Shown one piece after another: positions 38,677 to 56,649 of a stretch of 64,000 bases of DNA. Source of the DNA: Prorocentrum cordatum (lineage: Eukaryota; Sar; Dinophyceae; Prorocentrales; Prorocentraceae); contig CAUYUJ010011570.1 in NCBI GenBank assembly GCA_963575745.1, positions 332,501 through 396,500 of the forward strand, written 5' to 3'. The notes below the pieces were generated by a model that was not told the origin of the DNA, did not search any database, and was given only the letters and a program-made list of their open reading frames with translations. Each line of letters starts with the position of its first letter. Positions within the stretch are counted from its first letter, which is position 1. The position numbers were made by a program, and so were the translations under genes.

Positions 38677-38681
38677 GTAAT
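38677..38681. repeat. Target site duplication, left copy (GTAAT)
   Basis: These five bases directly outside the 3' LTR are identical to 56645-56649. Removing the element and one copy restores one continuous LINE reading frame. Confidence 0.93.
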
Positions 38682-38877
38682 TGTGTATGGGGTTGAAGTA
38701 CAAGAGTACAGAACCCCTGATCCGTTGGTAGAGAGATGGAGGGATAGATGGATATCTTTCCCTCCCAAGCGATCAAGGTACGATCGCTCCAACTCAGTAC
38801 CTGAGCCCAAACGGCCAGGTGCGGGAGAGGTAAGGATAAGGAGTATATACGAGGGTATTACACGGGTTCCACACACA
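38682..38877 (-). repeat. 3' LTR of the giant copia element
   Basis: This is the 196-bp partner of 56449-56644, offset by 17767 bp with 194 of 196 positions identical. The left side is flanked by GTAAT. The inner side is preceded on the element strand by a G-rich stretch. Confidence 0.96.
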
Positions 38878-38894
38878 CACCCCGTCCCGAATCC
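38878..38894 (-). promoter_or_regulatory. Probable polypurine tract
   Basis: Next to the inner edge of the 3' LTR the element strand is G-rich (CGGGACGGGGTG), where plus-strand priming is expected. It is interrupted by pyrimidines, so the call is positional. Confidence 0.35.
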
Positions 38895-39623
38895 CGCCCT
38901 TGAAGGCAGGACTCGGGATCAGGAGGATGGAATCCGTAACCTCAGAACTCCTTTACCTTAAGTCTGAAAAGGCAGCTGGGCTGAAAGTCAGCGAAGCCAC
39001 AGCTGCAAAGTGAGGTAAGAAGAGATACCTTGAGTCTCTTTTTCTTCTCCAGGCGGTCTTTGCCGCCCCCTCGGTGCGCCCCCCCAAAACGCTTCGGCAC
39101 TCGAGGGAGGAGAAGAATGAGACAAAGGTAGGCGGAGAAAGAAGATCTGAGCACCAAGGCAACGCAAACCGCCTCGCAAGATTTGCGAGGCAGGTGTTGC
39201 CACCAGCTATCAGATTATTCTCGACGCAATATTGTTAAATTGTTAAAGTATGCATGCTAAGATCGCGTTGACGAACGCAATCTTGAAATCAAACACAAGT
39301 CTGCCTAAAAGCAAATGTATGCCAAGATCGCGTTGACGAACACGATCCTGAAAGAAATGCAAATCTGCGTTAAAGCAAGTACCTGGCCAGGAGAAAATGT
39401 CGTGTTGATGAGCACGAAAATGATGTATAAAATCCGTTTGGCGACTCCCGTTGGCGCTGCTCCTTAGGAGGCTGCCTCGGTGATCGCAAAAGATATCTAT
39501 ATGTGTGTATGGCCACTTGTGTGAAAGATTGAAGTGGCCTTAAGAATGTATTAGCCACCGCTCAAGGCGAACTTTGATGAACGGAAGTTCTGCTCTGGAG
39601 CAGTGGGCCTTGCGGCCGACTCA
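38895..39623 (-). other. 3' untranslated region of the copia element with stem-loops
   Basis: This stretch is non-coding between the last stop and the 3' LTR. It holds a perfect hairpin (GCCTCGCAA, 3-nt loop, 39171-39191) and a 65-70-bp tandem repeat whose units each carry a stem-loop: 39261-39282, 39326-39347 and a weaker one at 39400-39417. On the element strand the first two stems (GATTGCGTT/AACGCGATC and GATCGTGTT/AACGCGATC) differ only by changes that leave G-U pairs. Confidence 0.6.
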
Positions 39624-42600
39624 CTACGCGTCGCCGTCCTTGTAGAACCTGCGGTCCCACACCCTCTGGCCGTTGTACGTCGCATAGCTTGTCGTAAACG
39701 TTTCCCAAGTGGTCCTCGGGATCCAGTTGCGGAACCAATCGTTGTACGTGATATCCTGGATGTACACATACTCGTCGTTGTTGATCGCAATGTAGATCCA
39801 ACATTTGATGTAATAACTCCAATATCGAAGACCCCAATCGCTGTCCTCGAGATTGTGGCGCCAGTAAGCAGCGTAATCAGATGTACGTGCTCTCATGGCG
39901 CGCGGCATCGCGGGCATGTAGTCCTCTGCGCCTGAGGCGCTGGATGCAGCGGCGTCGCCAGGAGCAGGGCGCGGCGGCGGCCGCGGCGGCGGCCGCGGCT
40001 CCATGGCGTCATCGGACTGTTGGGAGTGTGTATCTGGATCGGTTCTCATCCCTGTACTACCCCCCCTCTGGTCAGTGTGTGACGGATCGAGGGAGCCTAT
40101 CAGCTCGTTGGCAATCGCGGCAAGCTTGCGCTGGGTGAACTGTTCACGGGTTCCGTCCCCTCGAGGGAGAGAAACCGTAATCAGTCCGCGCGCCTGCCGC
40201 GTCTGCCTGTCAATGCGTCCCTCGTTCAGCCACCACTTTCTCCGACCAGCCTGTCCTGTCCTAATACTGACGTCAAGGATGTCCCACGCGTCGCGCATGT
40301 CCTCGACTCTCCAGGGCTTCTTGCCGACATTCACGCGGGCTCCTGTCATCTGATGATGGAATCTGAGGTCGTTGAGAAAGCGTTGAATGAGATTGGCGCA
40401 TGGGTAGTACAGAGGTCGGTCGTCCTCGGATTCGCCCATTAATCTGCATTCGTGTGCAGGCGGGCTACCGGCTTCGACCCACTTCTGATACCTCTTCTTG
40501 GACGTATTGGCCAATCTCCGCAACTGATCTTTCTCTGTGCCTATGGGGGATCGCGCACCCGTCATAATGACATGTGCGCCATCCTTCATGTATCTCGCGA
40601 CCTGGTCCTCGGACAACGTCGTCTTGATCCAGTTCGTCAACTTCTGGAGGTACGCGAGGTCACTCTGTGTGGCGGTGCTCTTACCTGTGGCGCCTACGGC
40701 CACAGTGTATTGCCAACATATATCACAGAGTGCGCCGTCACCTGTGACGATACCGAGGGACAGATCTCGACCGCAATTGTTACAGAGCGGCATGGGATGC
40801 AAGATCGTCTCGGGGGCCCCTGCCGAAGTCAGGTGATCGCGGGATCCCCAGCGGGTGTCCTGACCGCGAGCGAGGCTCTGACCGATCTGATTGATCGCCT
40901 CACGATTGATCTCGGTGTTTGGTCTGGAAGCGATCGATCTGCTTAAACCCTCGATCTCGATCCGAGACAACCTTTCCCCTGGCAGTCCTTTGTACTCTAT
41001 CTTGACGTTGTCGGTATCCTCAGTACCGCCATGGCATACGTTCTCCTCACGAAGACGGCGAGCCTGCTTCTGCAAGGTAGCCTCGTTGTCGCCCTCCTCG
41101 CGCTTGAGTCCCGTCTGTTCAGCTATGATGCGTACCATAGTCTCCTGATCGGGAGCTGCAGACGCAACACTGCCTGGGTCCTGGGGAATATCCTGCTCAG
41201 CGCCCTCCTCTCGAGGCGCAGCAGGTGTTTCCACCAGCTCTTCCCACACAGGAAACTCTGGATCACCGTATGTCGCAGTACAATTTTTGTATAGGTCACG
41301 CAATGCCTGAAGTGCAGGATGGTTGTCATGGATGACTTCCTTGGCGAAATCTGGTAGCTCCACAATACTATCTTTCAAGATGTTCTGGTATACTTTGGAA
41401 ATCCATTGAAAGATGCCAGTGGTCGACTCCTCGATAGTCTCCGGGTCGAGGTAGTGTACCAACTTTTTGAAGAAGTGATCTGCACCACAATTGGGTAAGT
41501 CATGTGCCCACTTGTGGGTATGATTGTAGTTCAAATGATATGACTCCGCGTTCCATGCTTTCGATCCAAATCGAATTTCAAATTGTAAATGTGACTGAAT
41601 TTTGTCCATTACGATTCTGTCTGCGCCACTGTGTATCTCAATGATCTGCCTCATCTTGATCATAGGCGAATCCACCAATAGCGCCGATGTCCAACAATAC
41701 ACGCGGCAATCATCAGACTGTCTAATCCATCTTGAATCCTCGTCGGGGTCGTAGTCTGGATGATCAAGGAAATTCGATGGCGGATCAATGATGTTATCGA
41801 GGATGCTTGCCTCGATCTGCTCTTCTGCTTGGATGTCTGCCGAGAGGTCTGCCCTCATGTTGTCGTTCGCAGCTTTCTCATCTGCAGTAAGAACGATATT
41901 TGATATGTCCACGATTACGGTGATCAGTGGATCATGCGATGATGCTGTACCCTGTCGAGGAATGTCGCCCGTCTGAGCGTTGTCCTCGGCAGGTGTGGCC
42001 ACCAGCTCGTCTGGATCAGGTGTCCGTGGAGCGGGCCTTCTTGGTGGTGTACGCGGAATACGTGGTCTATGGATGCTAGGCATTCCAAGGTATGGTAAGC
42101 TGCCGCTAACCTTGTGCTGCAGTATGTCCTCGCTGCAAGATGTCGGGCCTTTCAGGGCAGTCTCCATCCATGTTGGATCGATGGCGTGTTCTTCGATACG
42201 AATCGGCAATGCAAATACAACGCCCTTGAGGGGCATGCTTTTGTCATTATACCAGATATTTACCCATCGTAAACCGTAGTTGAGAATAGGTACTTGTACC
42301 GCAAAGAACTTGTCGAAGATGCCGAAATGGATGATTGGACCATATATGTGTCCCTTGGACAAGGCAATCTTGGTATTGTGATTGCCTTTGGGCCAATGGT
42401 TGTCGTAGTGGAAGCATTTGGTAGAGCCCCAATTCTTAATGACAATGAAGTCGCCCATTCGAACATCGTTAAATGCAGGACGACGATCCCAATCTTTTTG
42501 CATGATCTTTGCTGTGATTGGTCGAAGAGCTTCACGACAATGCGATAATGCAATCAACCATTCTTTATCATCTGCTTTGTGATTGGTCTCCTGGATCATA

Positions 42601-42755
42601 GCACGTACTATTTGCTCGTCCAAGGCGTCCTCTGCGGATGTACGGCCAGCAGGGGTTTCCCCCGGCCTGGCCGAGGGTGCTGATGCTGGCGTCCATCCTT
42701 GGAGGCTCCATGTCTTGGTCGGGGTCGATAGGTGCCAATCCAGGTGGGTCGTCAA
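39624..42755 (-). CDS. C-terminal extension of the copia polyprotein, unknown function, zinc ribbon
   Basis: This frame gives 1043 residues and ends at TAG. It is +1 to the KptA frame; the change probably falls at the G5 run 42659-42663, so the first 30 or so residues are overlap. Residues 60-240 (DFIVIKNWGSTKCFHYDNHWPKGN and after) and 330-520 look like folded domains rich in Trp, Tyr and His that I do not recognise. A zinc ribbon C-x2-C-x15-C-x2-C lies near 655-680. A Pro/Arg run is near 915-945, and the last 75 residues are strikingly Trp/Tyr-rich. Composition and the lack of stops over 3 kb, in AT-richer DNA than the surroundings, support real coding. It could be an accessory protein, envelope-like in position only: I see no signal peptide or convincing membrane segment. 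Confidence 0.75.
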   Translation of the reverse strand: MTTHLDWHLSTPTKTWSLQGWTPASAPSARPGETPAGRTSAEDALDEQIVRAMIQETNHKADDKEWLIALSHCREALRPITAKIMQKDWDRRPAFNDVRMGDFIVIKNWGSTKCFHYDNHWPKGNHNTKIALSKGHIYGPIIHFGIFDKFFAVQVPILNYGLRWVNIWYNDKSMPLKGVVFALPIRIEEHAIDPTWMETALKGPTSCSEDILQHKVSGSLPYLGMPSIHRPRIPRTPPRRPAPRTPDPDELVATPAEDNAQTGDIPRQGTASSHDPLITVIVDISNIVLTADEKAANDNMRADLSADIQAEEQIEASILDNIIDPPSNFLDHPDYDPDEDSRWIRQSDDCRVYCWTSALLVDSPMIKMRQIIEIHSGADRIVMDKIQSHLQFEIRFGSKAWNAESYHLNYNHTHKWAHDLPNCGADHFFKKLVHYLDPETIEESTTGIFQWISKVYQNILKDSIVELPDFAKEVIHDNHPALQALRDLYKNCTATYGDPEFPVWEELVETPAAPREEGAEQDIPQDPGSVASAAPDQETMVRIIAEQTGLKREEGDNEATLQKQARRLREENVCHGGTEDTDNVKIEYKGLPGERLSRIEIEGLSRSIASRPNTEINREAINQIGQSLARGQDTRWGSRDHLTSAGAPETILHPMPLCNNCGRDLSLGIVTGDGALCDICWQYTVAVGATGKSTATQSDLAYLQKLTNWIKTTLSEDQVARYMKDGAHVIMTGARSPIGTEKDQLRRLANTSKKRYQKWVEAGSPPAHECRLMGESEDDRPLYYPCANLIQRFLNDLRFHHQMTGARVNVGKKPWRVEDMRDAWDILDVSIRTGQAGRRKWWLNEGRIDRQTRQARGLITVSLPRGDGTREQFTQRKLAAIANELIGSLDPSHTDQRGGSTGMRTDPDTHSQQSDDAMEPRPPPRPPPRPAPGDAAASSASGAEDYMPAMPRAMRARTSDYAAYWRHNLEDSDWGLRYWSYYIKCWIYIAINNDEYVYIQDITYNDWFRNWIPRTTWETFTTSYATYNGQRVWDRRFYKDGDA

Positions 42756-43680
42756 TAAGTTCTCCAGGAAGGCAGGCGCAAATCTCGTACTTGCTCAATG
42801 GCTCTCTGGCTGCCAATGGCGGGTAGTCCCATGGGTCGCCGTCTGGCCACAGCTGCTGGCCATGCATGTGGTGTGGTTTGAGGCGGCGAATTGCAATAAT
42901 TGCCGCAGCGGGTACCACGTCCTCAGTCATGATAGCGCCCTGAGCACCCAACCAAAATCTGCAACCTGCTTTTGTGGCGATCTCCATGTTGATCACCAGC
43001 TCGACTTCGTTCTTGTAGCTGTTGAACTTGTACGATTCCACTGAAGTATGTGGGTTCTTTTGAACATTGTTCAAATATGTGCTAGAACTGAAGAATGCCT
43101 CGGATCGCTGCGATGGTTTGTAAGTTCTGTCTCTCTGAGAATGTGGTTCAACATATCCAGGAATGATCCCTGTCTTCAATATGTTCTTCCAGGCACGGGA
43201 TGCTGTGCCATGATGGAGATATTTGACATCTGTCCACTGTAAGCTCTCCCATCCCATGTTCCATGGCTTTGAAGATGGGTTGACACAACTGTGACCACCG
43301 ACGCACCGAATAGCAATAACGCTGCTCCAGTCAAAAATGCTGGGGTCACCTCCGTCAGGAATCGGCTTGGCGTATATCTCGATTCTGTTTTTTCTGCGGG
43401 TCAATATGCTTCTGGAACGCACGAATAATGAATATCGGATAGAAGTCGTTCCAATCGGTGTATCCATCATTTTCACCGTCTTTCTTGAAATGTGCCACTG
43501 CCGCTTCCATGGATGGTCCATTGTGTCTGTCTTTGCGATCTCGGAATTTCCATTGAACCATTTCTTTAAATGATTTCCAATTGTTTGGGATCTTCCAATC
43601 ATTCTTTGTTGTTTTGCCCCAGATATTAATACGTCTGTCATGAAATTGGTTGATCCAAAACTTTTTGTAGTGAATCTCAT
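42568..43680 (-). CDS. Tpt1/KptA-like RNA 2'-phosphotransferase domain, catalytic lobe (copia extension)
   Basis: Only about 42660-43390 of this frame is likely real; the rest overlaps neighbouring frames. In order it shows NRIEIY (KRFEI in the family), IRCVGGHS (IRAxQGHS), HHGTASRAWKNILKTGI (the HGT motif with I...G) and VELVINMEIATKAGCRFW then GAIMTEDVVPAAAI (the family's NGVWLT..VP segment). The first lobe, with LRH, lies in the preceding frame at 43660-43716, so one domain spans the frame change at the A6 run 43388-43393. Known Tpt1/KptA enzymes use NAD+ to remove a splice-junction 2'-phosphate from RNA through an Arg-His-Arg-Arg active site. The Arg-His of LRH and the Arg of IRxxxGHS are present. 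The family RxHVHLS segment is degenerate here (QRSEAFFSS), so activity is uncertain. The frame leaves the polyprotein near the G5 run at 42659-42663. Confidence 0.75.
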   Translation of the reverse strand: MRFTTKSFGSTNFMTDVLISGAKQQRMIGRSQTIGNHLKKWFNGNSEIAKTDTMDHPWKRQWHISRKTVKMMDTPIGTTSIRYSLFVRSRSILTRRKNRIEIYAKPIPDGGDPSIFDWSSVIAIRCVGGHSCVNPSSKPWNMGWESLQWTDVKYLHHGTASRAWKNILKTGIIPGYVEPHSQRDRTYKPSQRSEAFFSSSTYLNNVQKNPHTSVESYKFNSYKNEVELVINMEIATKAGCRFWLGAQGAIMTEDVVPAAAIIAIRRLKPHHMHGQQLWPDGDPWDYPPLAAREPLSKYEICACLPGELIDDPPGLAPIDPDQDMEPPRMDASISTLGQAGGNPCWPYIRRGRLGRANSTCYDPGDQSQSR

Positions 43681-46600
43681 GGCGTAACATAGTCGTGATG
43701 TCTTTGCTCATGTATTTGTTTGTTCCCAGCCATTCTTCATCAATTAGCTCAGGACCATAACGTACATCGTCGTAATGTGGTAATGGTATCCATTTCCATT
43801 CTGGGAAACAACCAGATTGTGCAATGTCAGGCGCATGAGCAATTACACTATCATCATGCAGTAGCTGCTCGTACCACTCTTGGTCTTCGATGCAGGCAAA
43901 TCCATTGGTCGCTTTCGTGCCCCGCAACATTGGGCACATGTATGGATGTTCATCTTTGATGCCATACTGTAACTTCCATTCGCGAATAGTGCATGAGTTA
44001 TCGAAAATCCCGAGCTTGCTGGTATCCTCGCGCATGGAACGCTCACAACTGTCCTGCCATGACAATATATTCATCTCATGTGGAGAAGGCTCCCCCTCAG
44101 CAGGAGTTGCCTCCAGCTCCATTGCCTCAAGGTCGGTGCCGTCATCAGGGATCGGTACCGCCTCAGCTTTTGGGAGCTGATCTGCTGGTTGTTGTTCTGC
44201 TTTAGGCTCTGGAGTCGATGGCTGCGACGCTTTGATCGATTGCGGTCCAGGTTGCAGTGGATCAGGCAATGGGCCTGGTGGGGCTGGCTGTGCTGTGTCA
44301 TCAGCTGCCCTCCATACGGCTGTAGGGACATTAGGGTCATGACCCAAAGCAACTCGATCCAGTGCATTCTGTTTGAAGAATGTTTTGCATGCCTCGATGT
44401 TCTTCTCGTTCTCGGCAGCTGGGCCGATGCGGTGAGAAGACAATCTGTTTTCTTCTGCAATGAGTCTTGATTTGGTCGCATTATCGTCTCCACCCAACTC
44501 TTTGATCTGACGTAAGAATTGCTCGAATACAACCCAAGTAACTACTGCATGTGCATCTTCAACTGTTTTGACGATCTTGGGTTCTAGAAGTTCATCTTTC
44601 TCAAGAGAATGCCAAGATGCCCAAGCCCCAGGGTATTCTTTGATCAACAGCATAAGGTACTGGAATAAGTCATTGTATGCCATAACCCATGGATCATTAT
44701 CAGGAAGGGTTTGGTCAGGATCGCTAGGGTCCGTTGCTGGCGTACGTGTAGACCTTCCAGGAGTTGGCTCAGTCGTGTCGCCCGTCTCGGCAGGCAGTGA
44801 TGCCGGCAATGTGCCCTCGGCACATGACGCCATCCACGCACAATGGGCCATCTCGTTTGCCGTCTGTGTCATCAATGTTGTGAGGCTGAGGTCTCTTTTC
44901 CATTCGTTTGTCAACTTTTCTCTGAAGTCGAGGGCTGCCATGATTTCCTTGGCCTGAGTGTAGGCCTGGTTGTCCGTGACAGAAGTCAGCAATGGCGGCC
45001 TGAATGGATATGGCTGAGAAGGAAGAGAGTGTATCAATGCGAAAAAATTGCGATAGCATACTGCGTCGCAGGATTGCGTTGTTAACATTGCCATGTTATG
45101 GTTATTCTGTTTGGCGTGCCGAGCCTGCGGGGCAACCCTGTCGTACGTATCCACCCAATGGTCGGATGGAAGAACAGTGATACCACGGTTCTGCATGATA
45201 GTGATCAAGTCGCTCGTGTGGTGATCAAAGTTCGGGTGCACGCCCCATTGCGCTGCTTTTCCAGGTCCCATGACCGTGGGGCAGCGGAAATACTGCATCA
45301 CATCGACAAAACGTGATACGTCCACGAGCACGTGTACGGGCATGAGCGTCGGGACGCCGCCCTCACATTCCATCTTTTGGAGCTCGTGTACGTTGGTAGG
45401 AGCACGACTGTGATGTCGGCGCATGTCGATGGTGTTCTGTCCAGGATTAACACATGCGATGTCGTTCGCACTCCATACTACCATGGCATTGAGCCCCCTG
45501 TGATAGTGTCTTTGTTTTATGGATGATGGGAAATCATTGGCCCAGTGTTCCCAGATGGTCTCGTTCAGCTCGCGCCACTTCTTGATGGAAGCGTTGTCGC
45601 TTTGAAACATGAGGCCTCTGGCTTCGCGGATCTTGCTGATCATATTGCGCTGCTCGAGAGTGTTCGCAAACTGATTGTTGAGAAGAGCGTTGATGCGGCT
45701 TTCCTCTTTCTCAAAACGTTGCTTGCGTAGTTCCTCCATTCCGTATCGTACGCCCTCATAACCAGCTTCAGGCAAGAGAACGCAATCTTGACCGATCGGC
45801 GTATCATTCTGTCTGAACCATTCCCTGTAATTGCCAAAAGAGAATGCCCACATCATGATGTCGTCGCGGATCATGGTCGACAGGTGCTCAAGAGTAGCGC
45901 CACCCATGTATTCCGCGCGGTTGAGGCACGGCATGAATAGCGGAACAAGAGCAGTAGTTGATGCTTTTGCGAGGTCGATTCTCTTCTGGGCAGCGTTGAG
46001 CTCGTCGATGCCGAAAGTGGGGTACTTCTTGTGTTTTGCACCCTCAGCCCCTTTCTTCGCATGCATGATCCATGTTGAGTCCGTGTATAAGTTGGTCCAT
46101 CTGTACGCATGACCCGATGGCCCAAATGCATGATGTAATGGTATTCCCAAGTCCTCTTGTACGAGGGAGTGCCACCCATTGTCTGACAATAGGGTAGAAA
46201 CCAAGCGACCACCACAGAAAGCACTGTATTTTGCGTGGTCCAACTCGAATGGGTCCACATCATTGCCAGGAGTCATGCCAGGATCATTCGAACCCATGTG
46301 GTCAGCAGCGTCGCCGAAGAAGTCGTTGCCCTCGTTGTATGGTGTCCAACGATAGGTACGCTCTGTCTCTTGTGGATCATCCAATATCGCCACCCAACCA
46401 TTCGTATGGTCGGATGGTGTTGCCACCGTCTTGGAGTTTGATCCGATACTTCCAAAGCCTCCGCGCGCAATCAACCATGTAGTAAGCTTGCGGCGGAACT
46501 TCATTGTTTGAGTAAGGTCGGAAAAAGCTCTCGTGTTGGTGACCAAGTTATCCTCGACGATATGGCCGATGTGCCCAGATGTATCCGATGTCCTGGCGAT

Positions 46601-49600
46601 GCCAGGTGGACGAGTAGGTAGCTTGGCCATTGCACGATCAATTTTAGGAGCATAGCATGGCGTTACCAATCCATTATGGTATACATCGGATGGTGCACTC
46701 AGACCATTGTTGTAATAGTTTTGCGTATCCGTAACGCTGTCGTCGGTGTATTGTCCCAGAACTGCACTGCCAATTTTGGACCAATCGTTGTGAATCATCA
46801 TCCACTCCGTCTTCAGTATCATAGTAGTAAAGTTTGATGGTGGACATTTGCGGTCTGATCCTGGGATCGTCGCATTCAAATGATCATGTAGTCCACGAAC
46901 ACTATCTTGTACTGAAGGATTACGATTGAAAAGACTGGAAATCATACACATAGCACGCATGAAAGATAGCCACGGCGTAGCTGTGAACGCGTTGTACTCG
47001 TAGTTGGCGTTGCCGCCGACGGATCCACTCTCAGTGCTGGCCCATTTCTTAGCCTCGACGGACGCGAAGCGGGCAAGTTCACGGATAGAAGACTCGTCGG
47101 GTACTCGAAGATCAAATTCTCCGCTCCGATCGGCACGCCGTTGATGTATGCATATGTAACCATCTTCGGGATCACGAGGACGACCAGTTTGAGCGTGGTA
47201 CGCAAAGCCCACGCGGTCATCGTCCCTGGCGTTCGGGTCGTACTCCTTGTCGTAGCCGATGGGCCAGCCGACGAGGTTGAGCGGCTGTGCCTGATCCATC
47301 TCGTGGATGGAGGGGTCGGGATTAGAACCGATCTCACTTATGTTCGCCTCGCAAGCGGCAAACAAGATGCTTGTAAGCTTTGTAGCTCGAGTCGTAAAAT
47401 TGCTGCGGTGTGAACGAATAATCAATGTCCTAACTCTCTCTGCATCTCGTTGAGGTGAGGGAGGATGGCGAGGATGTCTACCGTGCGGTGAACGTGCGCG
47501 TGAACGAGGTGTGCGCGACGCAGTATCTGCGGCTGGTACGCCATAGTGGTACATGCATGCACATAGTCCCTCATGGTTAGCTTGTCCAACACACTGAAAT
47601 CCGCATTCTGATCCTACCTCGCCCCATCTTTCTTTTTCCGTCAGCAATATCTTGCATATTTCTGGGCATCCATTCACTTTAGGAGGTTCCGCTTCATGAG
47701 GTAAACCATCGGGCCTCCGAGGCCCTCGTATCGGCGGACATTGTATCGGAGTAACAGGAAAAATAAGCGAGTGTTCCAAGAGGTCCTTCCAAAGGTCTGC
47801 TTTCTTGGTCTCGAAATGTTTGGTCATCATATCTGCGATCTGCTCTTTTGTTCCTACATATTTAAGCTCGATATGTTCAATTTGACATGTTTCGCATATC
47901 CAATCCAGATTGATACGATGAGTACGATGAAGATGACGAAGTGCTGGTGTACGTCCCTTTTGGACAATTTTGATAACGGCCTGGTTATCCTCCAAGACGA
48001 TAAGTCGTACTTTCGGTGCACTGATCTCTGGAGCTGGCTCTGGATCCACGTGTAGTACGGTACCTTCATGGGATATTGTACGTCTCTTTGGAGTCGTAGG
48101 TAAATCCGTGTTTAGCGGTAGTTGCCTACGGCCAGGAGAAGATCCCCGAGCAGGGGGTGCCTTGCGAGGCGATGGTTTACGCTTCTTTTTGGCTGCCAAT
48201 GTAGGACACATCGCCGGGTCAACGTGTCGATGGCAACTCAGGCATGCATTCTTCTCTTTGCATGTTTTGGCAACTCCCACCACGGCTTCCCAGAATGATA
48301 GTAGTGGTAACCCTTCCAGTCGTAGTGCGGAATCGAGAGCAACGATCTCCGATTCAGTAGATGAATGTGAAACAACCGTTTGTTTCTTACATACAGCGTT
48401 GACTGGAAAGAACGTATTGGGTCCAACAAGCGCAGCAAAAACACCAGTAGTGGATTTGGATGATGTAATGCAATCAGCGAACGAGGCGTCAGTGAACAGC
48501 ATGATGGATAACTTGTCTGATGAATCGCCTATCCATCCGTGTAAGCAGTGTGTACGCGTCGTTTTGATGTAGCATATCAACCGATGTAGACGTTTGTCAC
48601 ATGTAGTATTCCATTTGGTAATTTCTCTGGCCAACATACATACCGGATGTAGAAGATCGAAACGACAGCAACGTGCCAAGTACAGGATCTTCATTAGTAC
48701 ACTTGCCGCGTCCTGGCCGAGAACGCCCTCGTCTGAATAGTCGGACTCAGTGAAGGAGGTGTCCTCGATGCCAGGGGTCTCTGCGTCGGGTAGATCATGG
48801 TATGTGGCGGGTATGGTATTGGTAGAAGTTGTGTCGATCGATTTTGCTGGGCTGGATGATCTTGTCCGTGCGTTGAGCACACTAGTAGGTCTGGCGACCG
48901 ACCCGGAGGAAGATGGCGATTTGGATCGCGAAGCCCTCGGCGAGTCGGATCGTTTCCGACGTGACCCTTTTCCCTGGGCGCGCTTGGAGGCGCATTCCAG
49001 GTACCGCTCAATGCACTGATCTGTAAAACCAAGCATGTCATGTCGAATACCACGAACGTGTTTTGCCGTATTGTATTCTTTCTCGTTGTGTGCAGGTAGC
49101 ATAGGGCGTATTGTGGACATTCTTTTGTCGAAGATGCTCTGCGGTACGTCATATGCTTGTTGTCCACAACCCAAATATTGTGAGTATGGAGTAGGTGGAT
49201 CCAAATCGATACCGCTTTTACGAATATAATCCCAGCCAGTCTGTAGATTATGAGCTGGGCCGGCCAATTTGAAATCGTCCACATATACTGAAAGTATCAG
49301 TCCCAGTTTGTTGTGTCTCCATACACATTCCCATCCTGAAATAGGCTCGAAACCGACGCTTTCCAAGCATGTACGGCATTTTCGTTCCCAAAAGACACCT
49401 GCAAGAGGGTGTCCGTATAGTGCCAATCGCAATCGGCACACTGGGTTATTGTATTTTGACCATGATGTCGGTTGTCGCCATTTAGGTATAGTAATCCAAG
49501 TATCAACTGGATCAATTCGTCCGTCGCCGTATAATAATGCCTGCGTGTAAGCTCCAGGTGCGTCACTTTGCTCTCCCGCATATTGCGGTAATAATGCAGT

Positions 49601-49867
49601 AGCATCGCAAAGTTTGGAAGCCTCTATATGCGAAGCACTGGAAGCGGCGTCGGCGAATATGGCGGCCAAACCAGTTTCATCTTTGCCTGTATTGCCCTGA
49701 ACCACCACTCTGCCCTTGAATTTACGTAGATCAGGAGGAAGTTCTTCATGTTTGACTGAAGATAATTCCAATATATTGAAGAAATGCACCTTTGTTCCAT
49801 TGCGAATAGCTTGTGACTCAATGTCAGCCTTTTCTGCAACGGTCTCCAACATCCATGTTTGTTTCAT
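43355..49867 (-). CDS. pol: Reverse transcriptase and RNase H with a long C-terminal extension
   Basis: The frame is open from 49912; the first methionine is at 49867 (2170 residues). RT: KGRVVVQGN, DAPGAYTQALL and the catalytic YVDDFKLAG near residue 195. An RS-rich insert follows near 300-370. RNase H runs from LFTDASFAD (near 457) through STESEIVALD and EDNQAVIK to ADMMTKHF (near 680), with a basic insert of about 80 residues between the Glu and third Asp motifs. After RNase H comes a Cys/His cluster (C-x3-C-x6-H-x3-C-x-C), then about 1250 residues without assignable function. Within these, VVWSANDIACVN (near 1466) and LPSDHWVDTYD (near 1567) loosely resemble SGNH-hydrolase blocks; that is a weak guess. 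The last 120 residues hold the N-terminal lobe of a Tpt1/KptA domain (MSKDITTMLRHE), broken at the A6 run 43388-43393. The frame ends at TGA. Confidence 0.92.
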   Translation of the reverse strand: MKQTWMLETVAEKADIESQAIRNGTKVHFFNILELSSVKHEELPPDLRKFKGRVVVQGNTGKDETGLAAIFADAASSASHIEASKLCDATALLPQYAGEQSDAPGAYTQALLYGDGRIDPVDTWITIPKWRQPTSWSKYNNPVCRLRLALYGHPLAGVFWERKCRTCLESVGFEPISGWECVWRHNKLGLILSVYVDDFKLAGPAHNLQTGWDYIRKSGIDLDPPTPYSQYLGCGQQAYDVPQSIFDKRMSTIRPMLPAHNEKEYNTAKHVRGIRHDMLGFTDQCIERYLECASKRAQGKGSRRKRSDSPRASRSKSPSSSGSVARPTSVLNARTRSSSPAKSIDTTSTNTIPATYHDLPDAETPGIEDTSFTESDYSDEGVLGQDAASVLMKILYLARCCRFDLLHPVCMLAREITKWNTTCDKRLHRLICYIKTTRTHCLHGWIGDSSDKLSIMLFTDASFADCITSSKSTTGVFAALVGPNTFFPVNAVCKKQTVVSHSSTESEIVALDSALRLEGLPLLSFWEAVVGVAKTCKEKNACLSCHRHVDPAMCPTLAAKKKRKPSPRKAPPARGSSPGRRQLPLNTDLPTTPKRRTISHEGTVLHVDPEPAPEISAPKVRLIVLEDNQAVIKIVQKGRTPALRHLHRTHRINLDWICETCQIEHIELKYVGTKEQIADMMTKHFETKKADLWKDLLEHSLIFPVTPIQCPPIRGPRRPDGLPHEAEPPKVNGCPEICKILLTEKERWGEVGSECGFQCVGQANHEGLCACMYHYGVPAADTASRTPRSRARSPHGRHPRHPPSPQRDAERVRTLIIRSHRSNFTTRATKLTSILFAACEANISEIGSNPDPSIHEMDQAQPLNLVGWPIGYDKEYDPNARDDDRVGFAYHAQTGRPRDPEDGYICIHQRRADRSGEFDLRVPDESSIRELARFASVEAKKWASTESGSVGGNANYEYNAFTATPWLSFMRAMCMISSLFNRNPSVQDSVRGLHDHLNATIPGSDRKCPPSNFTTMILKTEWMMIHNDWSKIGSAVLGQYTDDSVTDTQNYYNNGLSAPSDVYHNGLVTPCYAPKIDRAMAKLPTRPPGIARTSDTSGHIGHIVEDNLVTNTRAFSDLTQTMKFRRKLTTWLIARGGFGSIGSNSKTVATPSDHTNGWVAILDDPQETERTYRWTPYNEGNDFFGDAADHMGSNDPGMTPGNDVDPFELDHAKYSAFCGGRLVSTLLSDNGWHSLVQEDLGIPLHHAFGPSGHAYRWTNLYTDSTWIMHAKKGAEGAKHKKYPTFGIDELNAAQKRIDLAKASTTALVPLFMPCLNRAEYMGGATLEHLSTMIRDDIMMWAFSFGNYREWFRQNDTPIGQDCVLLPEAGYEGVRYGMEELRKQRFEKEESRINALLNNQFANTLEQRNMISKIREARGLMFQSDNASIKKWRELNETIWEHWANDFPSSIKQRHYHRGLNAMVVWSANDIACVNPGQNTIDMRRHHSRAPTNVHELQKMECEGGVPTLMPVHVLVDVSRFVDVMQYFRCPTVMGPGKAAQWGVHPNFDHHTSDLITIMQNRGITVLPSDHWVDTYDRVAPQARHAKQNNHNMAMLTTQSCDAVCYRNFFALIHSLPSQPYPFRPPLLTSVTDNQAYTQAKEIMAALDFREKLTNEWKRDLSLTTLMTQTANEMAHCAWMASCAEGTLPASLPAETGDTTEPTPGRSTRTPATDPSDPDQTLPDNDPWVMAYNDLFQYLMLLIKEYPGAWASWHSLEKDELLEPKIVKTVEDAHAVVTWVVFEQFLRQIKELGGDDNATKSRLIAEENRLSSHRIGPAAENEKNIEACKTFFKQNALDRVALGHDPNVPTAVWRAADDTAQPAPPGPLPDPLQPGPQSIKASQPSTPEPKAEQQPADQLPKAEAVPIPDDGTDLEAMELEATPAEGEPSPHEMNILSWQDSCERSMREDTSKLGIFDNSCTIREWKLQYGIKDEHPYMCPMLRGTKATNGFACIEDQEWYEQLLHDDSVIAHAPDIAQSGCFPEWKWIPLPHYDDVRYGPELIDEEWLGTNKYMSKDITTMLRHEIHYKKFWINQFHDRRINIWGKTTKNDWKIPNNWKSFKEMVQWKFRDRKDRHNGPSMEAAVAHFKKDGENDGYTDWNDFYPIFIIRAFQKHIDPQKKQNRDIRQADS

Positions 49868-49912
49868 CTCCGATCTCTCGAATTCTTTTCGTAGGGCTTC
49901 TTGTGCACGTGG

Positions 49913-51154
49913 TTATGCGGCAACTTCTTTCTTACTCAGGTTTCTGGTAACTAATGCTGGGCGTGACCATGTCGAATCTGGTATTTTATCTCTGTGTGCC
50001 GGCATGTAGTTGGTCTCACGTGGCATGGTTGGTATTGCTACCGACTGGGTGAACTTGCGTATGAGCGGGTTCAAAGTCCCAAAGTCGGATCCCTCACTAT
50101 CCACAAATACCAAAGCACGTTCTTCTCCATCGTGCTGTTGTGTTAGTTGACGGTAGTATAGTACCGTGGTAATGTCACGTGGCCCACCAGGTAATTTGGC
50201 ATACAGTATTTCTTTGTTTGTCACGCCTTTGACATTCTCGTCGCGGATGACGTCGCCGTTGTCAGTGTCGTATGTAATCCGTCGTTCCACAGCATTCCAT
50301 GTGGGTCCGCCTGATGTAGTAGTACGGAAATTGTTGACCTGTTTATCCTGTCTTGTCCACACTCTCAATGCAGCACGATCACGAATTTCACGGGCTCGTT
50401 TAACGTCGTTGGCGTAATCGATCTCTTTCTTTTGCTGTCCACGAGAGAGTGTTTTCCAATGCTCGGGGAGAACATGATCAGGGCGTGTAGTAGTCTGCAC
50501 ACGTGTCTCGCGTCCACGAACCACCATTTTGCCGTCTGGCGTTATTTTTGGAAGCTCATAGAACTGAATCGTGCCTGTCCACGGCTCGCTCAGCTCCCTG
50601 TGGTCGTTGGCGCTAACACCATCCCAAACATCTCGGAAGTTACTTTCGCCCTCGAAAGTAGAAGTCGTTTTGAAATCTCGTGTCACGTCGAGTTGGTCAA
50701 CAGGTACTGGTAGATTCATGACGTCGTCCGTTGGAATGAATAGTTTCTTTCTTGGGGTACGAATGTGTCCGATGACGCAATATCCACGCTGTTCCCAGTA
50801 GTCTGGCTCCGGCGCTGGTGCAGCAACTTCGGAAGCCGATGTCTGGATATCAATAGCGTTACCTTCCGTTGTCATCATGGACGGATCATCCCATTCCTTA
50901 GGGTAAGAAAGTGGAGGATCAGGCATTGGCTTGTCACCCAAGGGGCGAGAAGTAGATGCCTTCACCTCGCCGTGTGCCTCAGGGTTATGATGTCGCAGAG
51001 TACCATCTTTCACGGGGTAGGTGAACTTGCCATCAAGAATGATGATGTCTTTGACTCTGTGCACATGACACAGATCACCATCAGGATTCTTGGCGTATGT
51101 AGCCGTGTCCAAAACAAGGTAGTCACCTGACCATCGTCCACCAGAGTGTAAGTG
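49913..51154 (-). CDS. Integrase C-terminal part and linker to reverse transcriptase
   Basis: This continues the integrase frame directly after the TAA at 51155-51157; the first methionine is at 51112. The start (GGRWSGDYLVLD) matches the end of copia integrase. The following roughly 380 residues are a charged linker of the kind between integrase and RT in copia polyproteins, with no motif I can name. It ends at TAA 49913-49915, and the RT frame continues in the same register after it (PRAQEALRKEF). It is therefore best read as the middle of one polyprotein interrupted by two nonsense codons, not as an independent gene. Confidence 0.75.
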   Translation of the reverse strand, partial: HLHSGGRWSGDYLVLDTATYAKNPDGDLCHVHRVKDIIILDGKFTYPVKDGTLRHHNPEAHGEVKASTSRPLGDKPMPDPPLSYPKEWDDPSMMTTEGNAIDIQTSASEVAAPAPEPDYWEQRGYCVIGHIRTPRKKLFIPTDDVMNLPVPVDQLDVTRDFKTTSTFEGESNFRDVWDGVSANDHRELSEPWTGTIQFYELPKITPDGKMVVRGRETRVQTTTRPDHVLPEHWKTLSRGQQKKEIDYANDVKRAREIRDRAALRVWTRQDKQVNNFRTTTSGGPTWNAVERRITYDTDNGDVIRDENVKGVTNKEILYAKLPGGPRDITTVLYYRQLTQQHDGEERALVFVDSEGSDFGTLNPLIRKFTQSVAIPTMPRETNYMPAHRDKIPDSTWSRPALVTRNLSKKEVAA

Positions 51155-51868
51155 TTATCCCATGAATAACCCTTCCCGAGTGTTTTCTTTAAAGTTTGCA
51201 GTCTCGTTGTTAATCTCGGGGTTGAGGCATTTCCAAAATATCCGAGCACCGAATGGTATGCAGTGCCCAGGAAAGCTTTCGCCAAATCTTATTTCATGAG
51301 CTGTCTTTTCTGCATGCTCCTCTTTGAGGGCAGCAACGCCCGTGGATGTATGCGCAAAGTTGTGTCCACAGCAAAAGGCTCGCATAACCTCTTTGCACCA
51401 TTCGTGTCCCAGACCAGACATATGTAACACAACTCTGGTACCAAGGATGACAATTTTGACAACCCGCTCAATCAATCCATTTGTCTGTGGACGATGTGGC
51501 GTACTCGTGTCGTGTCTCCATCCCAATTGGCGGCAAGCTTTCTGAAGCTCTCCAGAATTGTCTGTGTAGATATGCTTCACCTCATCGTTCGCGGCGATGA
51601 ACTGTTGAAAGGATGCCTTTGTAGTAGCTGCGTCTTTGTGTAGCGCTGGGTAGGCCATGAAGATGCCAGTATATCTGTCAAGGACAACAAGTGCATATTC
51701 GTCGCCATGTTTGTCCGCGGCATCGTCTTTGGCCAGTACGATCACCGAACTTCTTCGGGACAAAAGCTTCGTAAGCGTTATCCTCTTCGGTGGGGTCTGC
51801 CGGTGGATGTGGTTTGCGCTGTCGTCTACACGGGGCATTCTGTGCCATCGTACGAGAACAGATCTCAC
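51155..51868 (-). pseudogene. Integrase catalytic core, frame-shifted and ended by an in-frame TAA
   Basis: Homology starts near 51755, one frame (+1) away from the upstream Gag-protease frame; sequence before that is overlap. The core has HGDEYALVVLDRYTG, the second catalytic Asp in IYTDNSGE, and RPQTNGLIER, which holds the catalytic Glu. Where copia relatives carry the first Asp (an ADH-type motif after FGD), the sequence is shortened exactly at the frame change, so that residue may be lost. The frame ends at TAA 51155-51157 in GLFMG-stop-HLHSGG. Related elements have an aromatic residue there as I remember them, and reading continues in the same frame beyond the stop. It acts in the nucleus to insert the cDNA. 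As written this copy should be unable to make integrase, unless recoding occurs. Confidence 0.85.
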
Positions 51869-54800
51869 AGTCGGGATGTTTTGGGCTGTGAGTCATGTAA
51901 TGCATCGGGTCGATCGGTCTCTTTTGTCTGTTGGGCAGAACTCGATCGTTGTCTGGATGCGTTCGTGTGGGTGTCTCTGTCGGTATGTCGTTGTCTGCTT
52001 GAGCTATATCGGACCCCCCGCATTGTGGAGGAGAACACTGCATCTGAGACGTAGGCGAGTCGGTGGTCGTGTCCACGTTGGTCTCGTCTGTTCTTGTGTC
52101 GGGAGGTTCTTCGACCGTGATGGTCCGTGCTCCTCCTCCCTCTCCGACATGTGGTCTCTTGGGGCAGGTCCCTATGTGGGGTCGTAGCTCGTCTGCAGTG
52201 GTTGGTTGCTCTGTAGTTTTGCAGCACCAACAAGTGTCGTTACAGCGGGCGGATGAACGCTTTCGCTGACGACGGCGGGGTGCTGACGAAGTGCATAAAC
52301 GTGGTGGTGGTATCCGTGTTAAGTCGTCAAGTCGTAACTCTGGCACTCGATTGTTGACTGGAATCTTATACCATTGGCCCCCCGGATCCTGAAGCATGTA
52401 GCCCAGCTCAGGATCCCAAAGCTGTCGAAAGCCATCAACCTCGATCAATTTTCCAACTGATAGTAATGATGGGCAGTCTGGTAAAGCAAGGGCTGAACTA
52501 TGCAGTCCAACTTCGGGTAGCCGTATGTCGTAGTGCTCGTTGACGGTACGATCACCATTTGCAGTTTCCAGAATGTGCTCTTCGCGAATAGATATGCGAT
52601 CCGACTCGGCCTGCGTAAGTTCATGTTTTCCCTGAATATGATGGGCAGAACCACTGTCAAGAACCCAAGACCTTGTCAATGCTGCAGTCGAGCGTGGAGT
52701 GTCGACTTGCTTTGTCGTTGTTGTCGTCTGGGCAGTCTTTGATGACTGCTTGACAGTGTCGTCATGCTTTCGGATCGCAATTGGTGTGGCCACCGACTCT
52801 TTGTTGTGTCGGTAGTCGTACAGTTCGTCGTACCATAGGTGTGCCTCTTTTTGACATTCTCGTAAGGCCTCTGCACTATCATCCCACCATTTTTGTGGTA
52901 ATGGATCTGGTACTTTGACGATGCCACCCTCATTCGGCAGCTCTTTCCACCTGTCCAGTCTGGCTCTGCCAGATATGGTATGGAAATAATAGTCCACGTT
53001 GCGTACGTCGAAGCGTATCCGACGACGTATCTTGGTAGATGTCGTTGTGGCCTTGGTGTTGGCCATGAGGGTCTTGTCGCGGATGACGTAGCTGCGGTCT
53101 GAACGGCGTGAATGTCTAAAGTTGGCAGGAGAACGTGCTCTAGTGTTGGGTGAACCACGGGACGATCCGCGGCTCGGATACCGCTTGCCACGTCCTTTGT
53201 CACTGCCATATGATCGATCACGGCCGCGTGGACTGCCACGTCCGCCGCCACGATTGTCTCGTCCTCGGGAGGTAGATCTCGAAGATCTGTCGTAACAACG
53301 TCTCGATTGGCTGCGAGAGTCTTGGGACCTCCTGGATGTGGAACGGGATCGGTCGTATTGGCGTCGGTTGTCACGTCCCTGTCGTGAATCGCTTGCGTAG
53401 CGAAACCCCCCGCGTTGTGAAGACCGTTGGCTTCCTGATCCGCGGGATGGTGATCGGCCACGGCTGTCCTGGCTGGAAGTCCGTGGTCGACTCGGGCTTC
53501 GTTCAGGAGTCTTTGCACCAGGTGCGAGATGAGCGTATTTGCATTTGTCGCCTTTCGTGCACTTGTTCTGTGCGAAATCCTTGCGCTGTGCGACGTGCGG
53601 GTAGTTACACTTATCACCTCTGGTACATGTGTTGCGCTTGGCAAGATCGAAGCAGAACGGCCTTGATGCTGGCTTCTTGTGATTCGCAGGAGTGGACATA
53701 CTACGGCGGGGGTTGCCACCAGCCGTTGATGTTCTGGAAGATTTGTTGTTCTTCCAATCCCTGGAAAATGTATGTAAAGCCTTGCACCGCTCACCATTGC
53801 GACAATTGCCTTTCTTCCATGCAACGCACGCGTTAACCTGAGATCGTGTCTCGTGTTCGTACCGTAGCTTGTTTTGATTCTTCTCCAATTGTTTAATCTC
53901 CAGTACGTCCAGGACACGCTGTCGAAGCCAACCGTAGGTACGATTCGGGTCGCTCATCTTCATGCGCTGATACTCGTACATGTCTTGTTTCATCCATGCA
54001 TGTCTACGAATCTGCGTGCGGAATAGCGATTCCAATATCTTTGGATCGGGTACTTCTCGGCATTCCAAGAGTAAGGCGTCCCATTCGGTGATGAAACGTT
54101 GCAAACCTTCGTCTCTCATCCTCAGTTCTTTAAGGCGCTCGAAATCGTGCAGGTCGTCGTCGACGTCTGTCACTTTGTAGGACTGTAGGATATGCCAATA
54201 TATCTGGCGTCCTTTGAGCATGCGTCCTGCGTTGTGCTCTCTGGTCTCGATGAGCCTGATTTGGTAGCGTAAGTCTGAGGATAAGATGTCGCTCAGAGCG
54301 GTTGCGAGTTTGCAATCGATGCTCTCAAAGTCTCCACTGTCTTGTAAATCCTCGAATGTGCATTCGGGTTGTTCTGCCACGCATAGGAAGGCGTATGCTT
54401 TGGATGGTCGCCCTGAGGCGGCCCCGAAGTTCTTCCGCACTCTTTGCTGCCACTCCAGCAGCTGCGTGATCTTAGGCAAGACAGGTACACGGACGGTGTC
54501 TGACTCCTTGATAGGCGTCGTAGTATGGACCGACACCGCAGACGCTGGCTGTGAGGGTATCGGTGCACCGTCGATGGTTGGTTCTGTGCGCACAGGAGAC
54601 ACATGGCGTGTCTGTGCAGAAGCTGCCGCGGAGGCTGCTCCTGGAGATGTGCGTCGTTGTTGTCCTGCTGAAGCTTGTGGTGCTTCGGCGGACACTGCCG
54701 TCGGCCTGTGCGGGTCGGCTGCAGGTCGAAGGTGAATGTTGGTGTCGTTAGTGTGGTCGATCAGCTGATTCGTCCAGCTCGTCATGTCTTCTTGTATTTG

Positions 54801-56543: not shown

Positions 56544-56644
56544 GGTACGATCGCTCCAACTCAGTACCTGAGCCCAAACGGCCAGGTGCGGGAGAGGTAA
56601 GGATAAGGAGTATATATGAGGGTATTACACGGGTTCCACACACA
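56449..56644 (-). repeat. 5' LTR of the giant copia element
   Basis: This 196-bp direct repeat has its partner at 38682-38877. On the element strand it begins TGTGTGTGG and ends ATACACA, so it has TG...CA ends. It differs from the other LTR at two positions, in the ATAAATG/ATAGATG and TATATATGAG/TATATACGAG segments. The LTR is short for copia. A methionine in frame with Gag (56543) lies inside it, so part of the LTR is formally open in the Gag frame. Confidence 0.96.
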
Positions 56645-56649
56645 GTAAT
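56645..56649. repeat. Target site duplication, right copy (GTAAT)
   Basis: These five bases directly outside the 5' LTR are identical to 38677-38681. A 5-bp duplication is the usual length for Ty1/copia integrase. Confidence 0.93.

Follow-up and report, generated by a model that had tools for sequence, protein, structure and literature searches.

Enzymes of the Tpt1/KptA family (Pfam PF01885) are NAD+-dependent RNA 2'-phosphotransferases. In CthTpt1, the essential residues form an Arg-His-Arg-Arg tetrad and the HGT motif binds adenosine (PMC6333775). A survey of viral KptAs (PMC9503650) describes the domain as embedded in the polyproteins of two RNA viruses, Beihai picorna-like virus and Botrylloides leachii nidovirus, and assigns it the clean-up of 2'-phosphates left by metal-independent RNA cleavage; in its main text the word retrotransposon is absent. 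Retrotransposons carrying DNA methyltransferases (DNMTs) are on record from Symbiodinium (LINE and DIRS elements) and charophytes (PMC5890265). Here we describe 64,000 nucleotides of the dinoflagellate Prorocentrum cordatum (assembly GCA_963575745.1, contig CAUYUJ010011570.1, positions 332,501 to 396,500; hereafter the window), in which a copia-type long terminal repeat (LTR) retrotransposon of a family that we call A encodes a divergent Tpt1/KptA domain on the 3' side of RNase H, within the polyprotein. In a second and distant family of this genome, a canonical KptA lies upstream of a protease-like segment. The domain is thus a kept, recurrent retrotransposon component and not a host exon.

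An initial annotation of the window had pointed to five Tpt1/KptA landmarks in family order on the minus strand, and all five were recovered: MLRHE (43676-43690, inside the interval 43660-43716 given for it), NRIEIY, IRCVGGHS, HHGTASRAWKNILKTGI and GAIMTEDVVPAAAI. In this copy the domain is divided between two open reading frames (ORFs), and the pieces meet at a run of six A (A6; 43388-43393, minus strand). The N-terminal piece (RNA lobe, 43397-43711, MSKDITTMLRH...) lies in the reading frame of the reverse transcriptase (RT), within a 2185-amino-acid (aa) ORF at 43358-49912 in which RT and RNase H are encoded as well. The C-terminal piece (NAD lobe, 42870-43386), which runs from RIEIY through IRCVGGHS, HHGT, QRSEAFFSS and GAIMTEDVVP to VVPAAAI, lies in a different frame, within the ORF at 42571-43707. 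The proposed assignment to Tpt1/KptA held in a Pfam search, which matched PF01885 in the window (E 9.2e-06; 26.2 bits against a cut-off of 26; profile positions 71-176 of 177). When five of eight fetched open copies of family A were sampled, they matched the same profile at 3.5e-06 to 1.5e-05 and 25.6-27.6 bits, in the C-terminal part only, four of them above the cut-off (26.9-27.6 bits) and the fifth at 25.6. We then used hhalign with an alignment of 38 family A copies (30 loci of the protein search described below, the window among them, and eight fetched copies with a five-A run), which also served for the residue counts and substitution ratios of these copies. Its C-terminal half matched 31 bacterial, viral and host KptAs with a probability of 90%, E 1.5e-06 and a score of 43.3, far above the maximum of 19.5 in 100 column shuffles. 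A profile of the eight open copies gave E 2.6e-06 and a score of 44.4, against a shuffle maximum of 20.3 (100 shuffles). Against a set made up of two host genes, family B and the predicted protein P0002 (the latter two introduced below), family A gave a colinear hhalign match over columns 7-272 with a probability of 30% and E 5.4e-04.

Several results weigh against this assignment. The PF01885 match in family A begins only at about position 67 of the profile, and the N-terminal half, which lies outside it, is not significant on its own in hhalign; the profile comparison of family A with three host KptAs is weak (probability 3%, E 0.015). With family A alone, no solved Tpt1 structure was retrieved from PDB (no match at E 10), no Tpt1 was among the PDB matches of the window ORF up to E 1, and the NCBIfam match reaches an E of only 0.03. 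The N-terminal part contains the LRH motif and has a ratio of nonsynonymous to synonymous substitution rates (dN/dS) of 0.16. Profiles that combined the host-type KptAs with P0002 and family B, whether family A was added or left out, matched solved Tpt1 structures of 13 different sequences, at best 8.6e-40 and 5.5e-38, which is owed mostly to the canonical members. We consider it very probable, from these profile and motif comparisons, that the family A domain belongs to the KptA family.

The genome searched comprises 4.13 Gb in 21,875 contigs. A 379-aa ORF of the window gave 109 matches in 108/108 scored places, all at E 1.7e-42 or better; since 108 of 2644 candidates were scored here, and 150 of 2877 in the PF01885 search below, family sizes are lower bounds, and all counts are places in the assembly as it stands. 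A pattern with strict flanks across the A-run site had 210 matches, compared with 0 for the reversed control. Among the 100 matches listed, the run was A5 in 87, A6 in 8 (window included), A9 in 2, A4 in 2 and A8 in 1. All eight fetched A5 copies contain one stop-free frame of 585-587 aa, without N, that leads from the polyprotein through KptA into the start of the tail. Likewise, in P0001, a EukProt predicted protein listed under Pyramimonas sp. (contamination possible), the end of KptA continues into the tail, at about 60% identity; it was the sole match among 2461 candidates. These in-frame junctions in the A5 copies and P0001 indicate that the domain belongs to the element and that the frame break in the window is a slip. 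As a correction to the initial annotation, which had proposed joining two frames at A6, the A6 break is a minority slip and not a property of the family. Open-frame lengths were not used as polyprotein lengths, because runs of N keep frames open (2500 N each in L009 and L010, 7500 in L018). In two further copies (L044, L045), a TA-repeat expansion directly follows the A-run of the KptA domain. In IMG/VR, the family A pattern had three matches, none of them a relative.

Both halves of the domain show low substitution ratios. The median dN/dS in the expected frames was 0.11 for the C-terminal half (593 pairs with dS >0.05) and 0.16 for the N-terminal half (517 pairs), the pairs not being independent, and 0.81-1.70 in the wrong frames. 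Of the 38 copies, three carry a stop in the N-terminal half and one in the C-terminal half. The domain has been kept under purifying selection while family A multiplied.

Two other accounts of the frame break were considered. A programmed frameshift at the A6 run, regulating KptA synthesis, would fit the A6 or A9 runs in 27/38 aligned copies, and both halves are constrained in those copies (pooled ratio of nonsynonymous to synonymous differences, pN/pS, 0.20 in the N-terminal and 0.14 in the C-terminal half, next to 0.23 and 0.19 in the 11 A5-type copies), and the overlap of about 350 nt between the two open frames points the same way. However, the ranking of 30 of the 38 aligned copies came from a query with the A6 frame, the second frame of the overlap is not under selection (dN/dS 1.32), and we rejected this very improbable account because A5 prevails in the pattern search. 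The other account, a host KptA exon, an assembly chimera or a single-copy passenger, can draw on one point, the broken state of the window copy, and we regard its probability as negligible. The site occurs at 210 places, both junctions are in frame in 8/8 copies, and the host-type KptA genes are distinct from family A (19-24% identity, three compared); it was rejected on the 108/108 scored places, the 8/8 in-frame copies and the 210 pattern matches. The possibility, raised initially, that host exons might match better also fell away, the seven host-type places (L001-L007) being separate sequences.

We next turned to the active site. Of the tetrad, the first three residues hardly vary among the family A copies (R 38/38, H 37/38, R 38/38). 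The same is true of HGT in the NAD lobe (H 38/38, G 38/38, T 37/38). In a joint alignment of family A, family B, P0002 and three host-type KptAs, R19, H20, R144, H176-T178 and R211 are invariant. R211, in PSQR-SEAFF (cf. CthTpt1 Arg121), is the candidate fourth tetrad Arg and is present in 38/38 copies. Four more divergent copies keep the PSQR Arg in 4/4 cases, while the neighbouring RDR is RDK in 3/4, which favours the PSQR Arg as the fourth residue. The initial annotation had called the RxHVHLS segment degenerate and suggested drift to another role; the segment is indeed altered, but such drift is not implied, as its Arg is invariant in 38/38 copies and in the 4/4 divergent ones. Counting against the assignment, the alignments disagree on the fourth Arg, two choosing R211 and two others choosing other Args, and the NAD-phosphate Arg pair (CthTpt1 Arg139, Arg140) is not evident in family A or B: in the joint alignment, which is uncertain in that region, neither has an Arg at the aligned GxR site. 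We consider it probable that the domain is catalytically active.

The claim that the domain is part of the element is also borne out in related elements, with KptA not only at the 108/108 scored family A places but at 6/6 family B places, one with a copia RT nearby, and in P0002. In the genome-wide PF01885 search, 150/150 scored places were above the cut-off. The top seven (L001-L007, 186-96 bits) resemble KptA genes of host type or copies of these; the remaining 143 scored 91.5-71.3 bits, graded but similar, and we infer from the six that were read that they are family B. All six have MHGTRW, GRSHIHF and DNGVLLSEG, and five have RASQGHS, which in the sixth lies beyond the part read. At three places the KptA match was 4e-23, 3e-24 and 2.5e-25 (82.8, 86.5 and 90.0 bits; from position 4 or 5 to 177). 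Along the L010 polyprotein come, in this order, a weakly matching CCHC knuckle (17.2 bits against a cut-off of 20.8), KptA, a RING finger and a protease-like end (read by eye). One family B contig has RVT_2 (36.3 bits, cut-off 31.6) downstream in a separate ORF; on a second contig, the 1668-aa ORF that follows the KptA ORF contained no RT. The dN/dS in family B was 0.15-0.28 (six pairs of four copies, one pair near-identical).

The RING finger of family B lies between KptA and the protease-like end at L012:5620-9999 (minus strand; residues 824-878, PF17123 2e-08), and likewise at L010 and L020, the three places scoring 2.2e-08, 2.8e-07 and 2e-08. To our knowledge, a RING finger in an LTR element seems unusual. 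At L012:5617-5619 (minus strand), a single stop separates the KptA-RING ORF from the in-frame 1668-aa ORF. Stop readthrough in family B is conceivable, a length of 2941 aa recurring among the frames displayed, where lengths elsewhere may include N.

A third family, C, is represented by P0002, a 2770-aa predicted protein whose ENA record has 62 member sequences; it contains RVT_2 and then PF01885 (7.2e-23) after RNase H. A search for other long proteins resembling its KptA region returned only P0002 itself among 811 candidates. The P0002 RT shares 39% identity with the family A RT and 46.5% with the RT of P0003, and the RT of the window element is 36-40% identical to P0002-P0006. No PF01885 appears for P0003-P0006 in the precomputed domain list (P0003 and P0006 were also scanned), and these models may be truncated. 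The family B RT had no BLASTP match at 1e-3 to the RTs of family A and P0002-P0007. KptA occupies at least two polyprotein positions in at least two distant RT lineages. After RNase H, P0002 (from residue 1448) and P0006 (from residue 1932) share a conserved stretch in which IVE-F/Y-CCG is followed 57 residues later by PCTGGS; it resembles a methyltransferase motif and has no Pfam match.

Whether these occurrences reflect several captures was addressed with trees. A tree of 39 KptA rows unites the bacterial and viral sequences in one clade (98/98); it does not place family A, whose branch measures 7 to 9 changes per column, and does not give the number of captures. No branch was starred in an RT tree of eight sequences. 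A single KptA capture followed by losses or exchange is compatible with these trees. It is conceivable, though we think it rather unlikely, that unrelated dinoflagellate copia lineages captured Tpt1 more than once and use NAD+ to heal the half-tRNA primers from which they start reverse transcription, with the 2'-phosphate sitting either at the cut end or at a tRNA splice junction within the primer binding site; the domain would then be a primer-repair enzyme encoded by a retrotransposon. Other KptA relatives were found at 26 loci of IMG/VR viral contigs (L073-L098) and at 13 bacterial loci (L060-L072). Among the host-type places, L005, L006 and L007 comprise two identical 316-aa KptA translations on different contigs and a decayed third relative, that is, a duplicated host gene; the two loci with identical translations agree at 3161/3492 positions without gaps.

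The window element is a full-length copia-type LTR retrotransposon of 17,963 bp at 38682-56644 on the minus strand, to which all following coordinates refer. This places the domain inside a copia element, as first annotated: the LTR ends are complete, integrase and RVT_2 are present, and the N-terminal part of the domain shares the reading frame of RT and RNase H. A 5-bp target site duplication, ATTAC on the minus strand, flanks it (5' side 56645-56649, 3' side 38677-38681), and the 196-bp TG...CA LTRs (5' at 56449-56644, 3' at 38682-38877) are 99% identical, with 2/196 positions mismatched. A candidate primer binding site, GGTTATCAGCCC, follows at 56437-56448. The gag has three CCCH zinc fingers at 53529-53849 (PF18345 3.4e-11, three stretches), which stand in place of the CCHC knuckle. 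Read by eye, the copia-type protease motif LDSGSAHH is at 52638-52661 and the RNase H motif STESEIVALD at 48332-48361. The integrase core (rve, 51488-51712; PF00665 4.4e-07, 30.5 bits, curated cut-off 32.6) precedes RVT_2 (49166-49723; PF07727 1.8e-06, 28.2 bits, cut-off 31.6; YVDDFK at 49268-49285), which is the copia-type order; both matches are significant by E and under the curated bit cut-offs. About 1370 aa with no convincing family match separate the end of RNase H from KptA, and a 1056-aa tail ORF with no recognised family (39627-42794), which in P0001 and the eight A5 copies is joined at its start to the KptA part without a break, follows the domain. The window copy is broken by in-frame stops at 51155-51157 and 49913-49915 and by frame changes near 51.8 kb, at the A6 run and near 42.7 kb. 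Rfam at gathering scores and ARAGORN gave no matches in the window.

What the domain might do in the element was considered from its family and its position. A 2'-phosphotransferase would be made and packaged with the element RNA, where it could strip 2'-phosphates from the ends or splice junctions of RNA that has to be copied by the element. Among RNAs of the sort described for viral KptA, the primer is the nearest at hand for a copia element. The likeliest substrate would be a half-tRNA primer, because the primer binding site is flush with the 5' LTR and in the anticodon-arm register: GGTTATCAGCCC starts at the first base past the LTR and would pair with an anticodon arm, GGGCTGATAACC. The primer 3' end and a possible tRNA splice junction would both fall within the stretch that needs to be free of 2'-phosphates. 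In Drosophila copia, the primer binding site GGTTATGGGCCC pairs with the anticodon arm in one half of a tRNA. We tentatively favour the reading that the domain is an active 2'-phosphotransferase cleaning RNA copied by the element, most likely a half-tRNA primer; that the primer is the main substrate is possible, and we put it no more strongly. The following points stand against the primer role. Half-tRNA priming is found in copia elements without KptA. A search with one strict pattern for a tRNA gene with the exact complement of the primer binding site and a standard T arm had 0 matches, as expected if an intron lies there and equally if the primer idea is wrong. The window element showed neither a recognisable 2H phosphoesterase nor an RNA ligase, and a scan of three window ORFs for the 2H motif pair found scattered H-x-S/T motifs and no callable pair. 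The diatom literature on half-tRNA priming, in the portions available, contained nothing on primers.

Instead of serving the primer, the domain might act in counter-defence, healing element RNA or tRNAs cut by host ribonucleases, a role proposed for the KptA of phages and of the few RNA viruses with the domain in their polyproteins. KptA also occurs in phages and a few eukaryotic viruses, in some within polyproteins (PMC9503650), and the 26 IMG/VR loci fit such a role; but no 2H domain or RNA ligase was recognised beside KptA in the pieces of families A and B that were scanned, and host RNA cleavage is without evidence in this organism. We consider this reading rather unlikely. A domain that ADP-ribosylates RNA or DNA ends, adding a 5' or 2' ADP-ribose cap that would shield element RNA or cDNA, seems improbable, because conservation falls on the residues by which CthTpt1 binds the 3'- and 2'-phosphates at a splice junction (PMC6333775). 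Similarly improbable is a non-catalytic, divergent descendant retained for RNA or nucleotide binding. The very long branch of family A, its insertions and the altered RxHVHLS segment would suit it, whereas the near-invariance of R, H, R, HGT and another Arg in the 38 copies and, as regards the C-terminal half, in the four divergent copies, and the canonical domain of family B do not.

A conserved and recurrent KptA would imply that RNA 2'-phosphates limit the life cycle of these elements, and the making and healing of half-tRNA primers and the use of NAD+ in reverse transcription thereby become testable. The domain stands out as recurrent, under constraint and abundant. Given the high copy number, many PF01885 matches in such a genome lie in mobile elements and not in tRNA-splicing genes, which matters for annotation. 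Among the matches listed in the open-licence literature, none had Tpt1/KptA in an LTR retrotransposon in its title or the start of its abstract, and the co-mentions concerned a list of soybean genes, the KptA of a baculovirus, and tables of Entamoeba domains, of the ART family and of expression in mussels. KptA in LTR retrotransposons thus seems new as far as the searched open-licence literature shows; the capture of enzymes by retrotransposons has precedent.

Compared with known systems, the domain resembles Tpt1/KptA enzymes in landmark order, Arg-His-Arg, HGT and the candidate fourth Arg, but these are free enzymes, whereas here it is part of a polyprotein, with long insertions and an altered RxHVHLS in family A. 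It shares with the viral polyprotein KptAs a place within the polyprotein of a replicating element; those are RNA viruses, and the present carriers are high-copy LTR retrotransposons. The window element is like Ty1/copia in its order of protease, integrase, RT and RNase H, its short LTRs, its 5-bp duplication and a candidate primer binding site in the half-tRNA register, and differs in its length of about 18 kb, its CCCH instead of CCHC gag fingers, the spacer of about 1370 aa and the 1056-aa tail. The closest parallel in kind is offered by the DNMT elements (PMC5890265): there, too, retrotransposons of algae have repeatedly captured a cellular enzyme that acts on nucleic acids, its key residues are preserved and copy numbers are high; they carry DNA methyltransferases, whereas the copia elements described here carry an RNA-processing enzyme.

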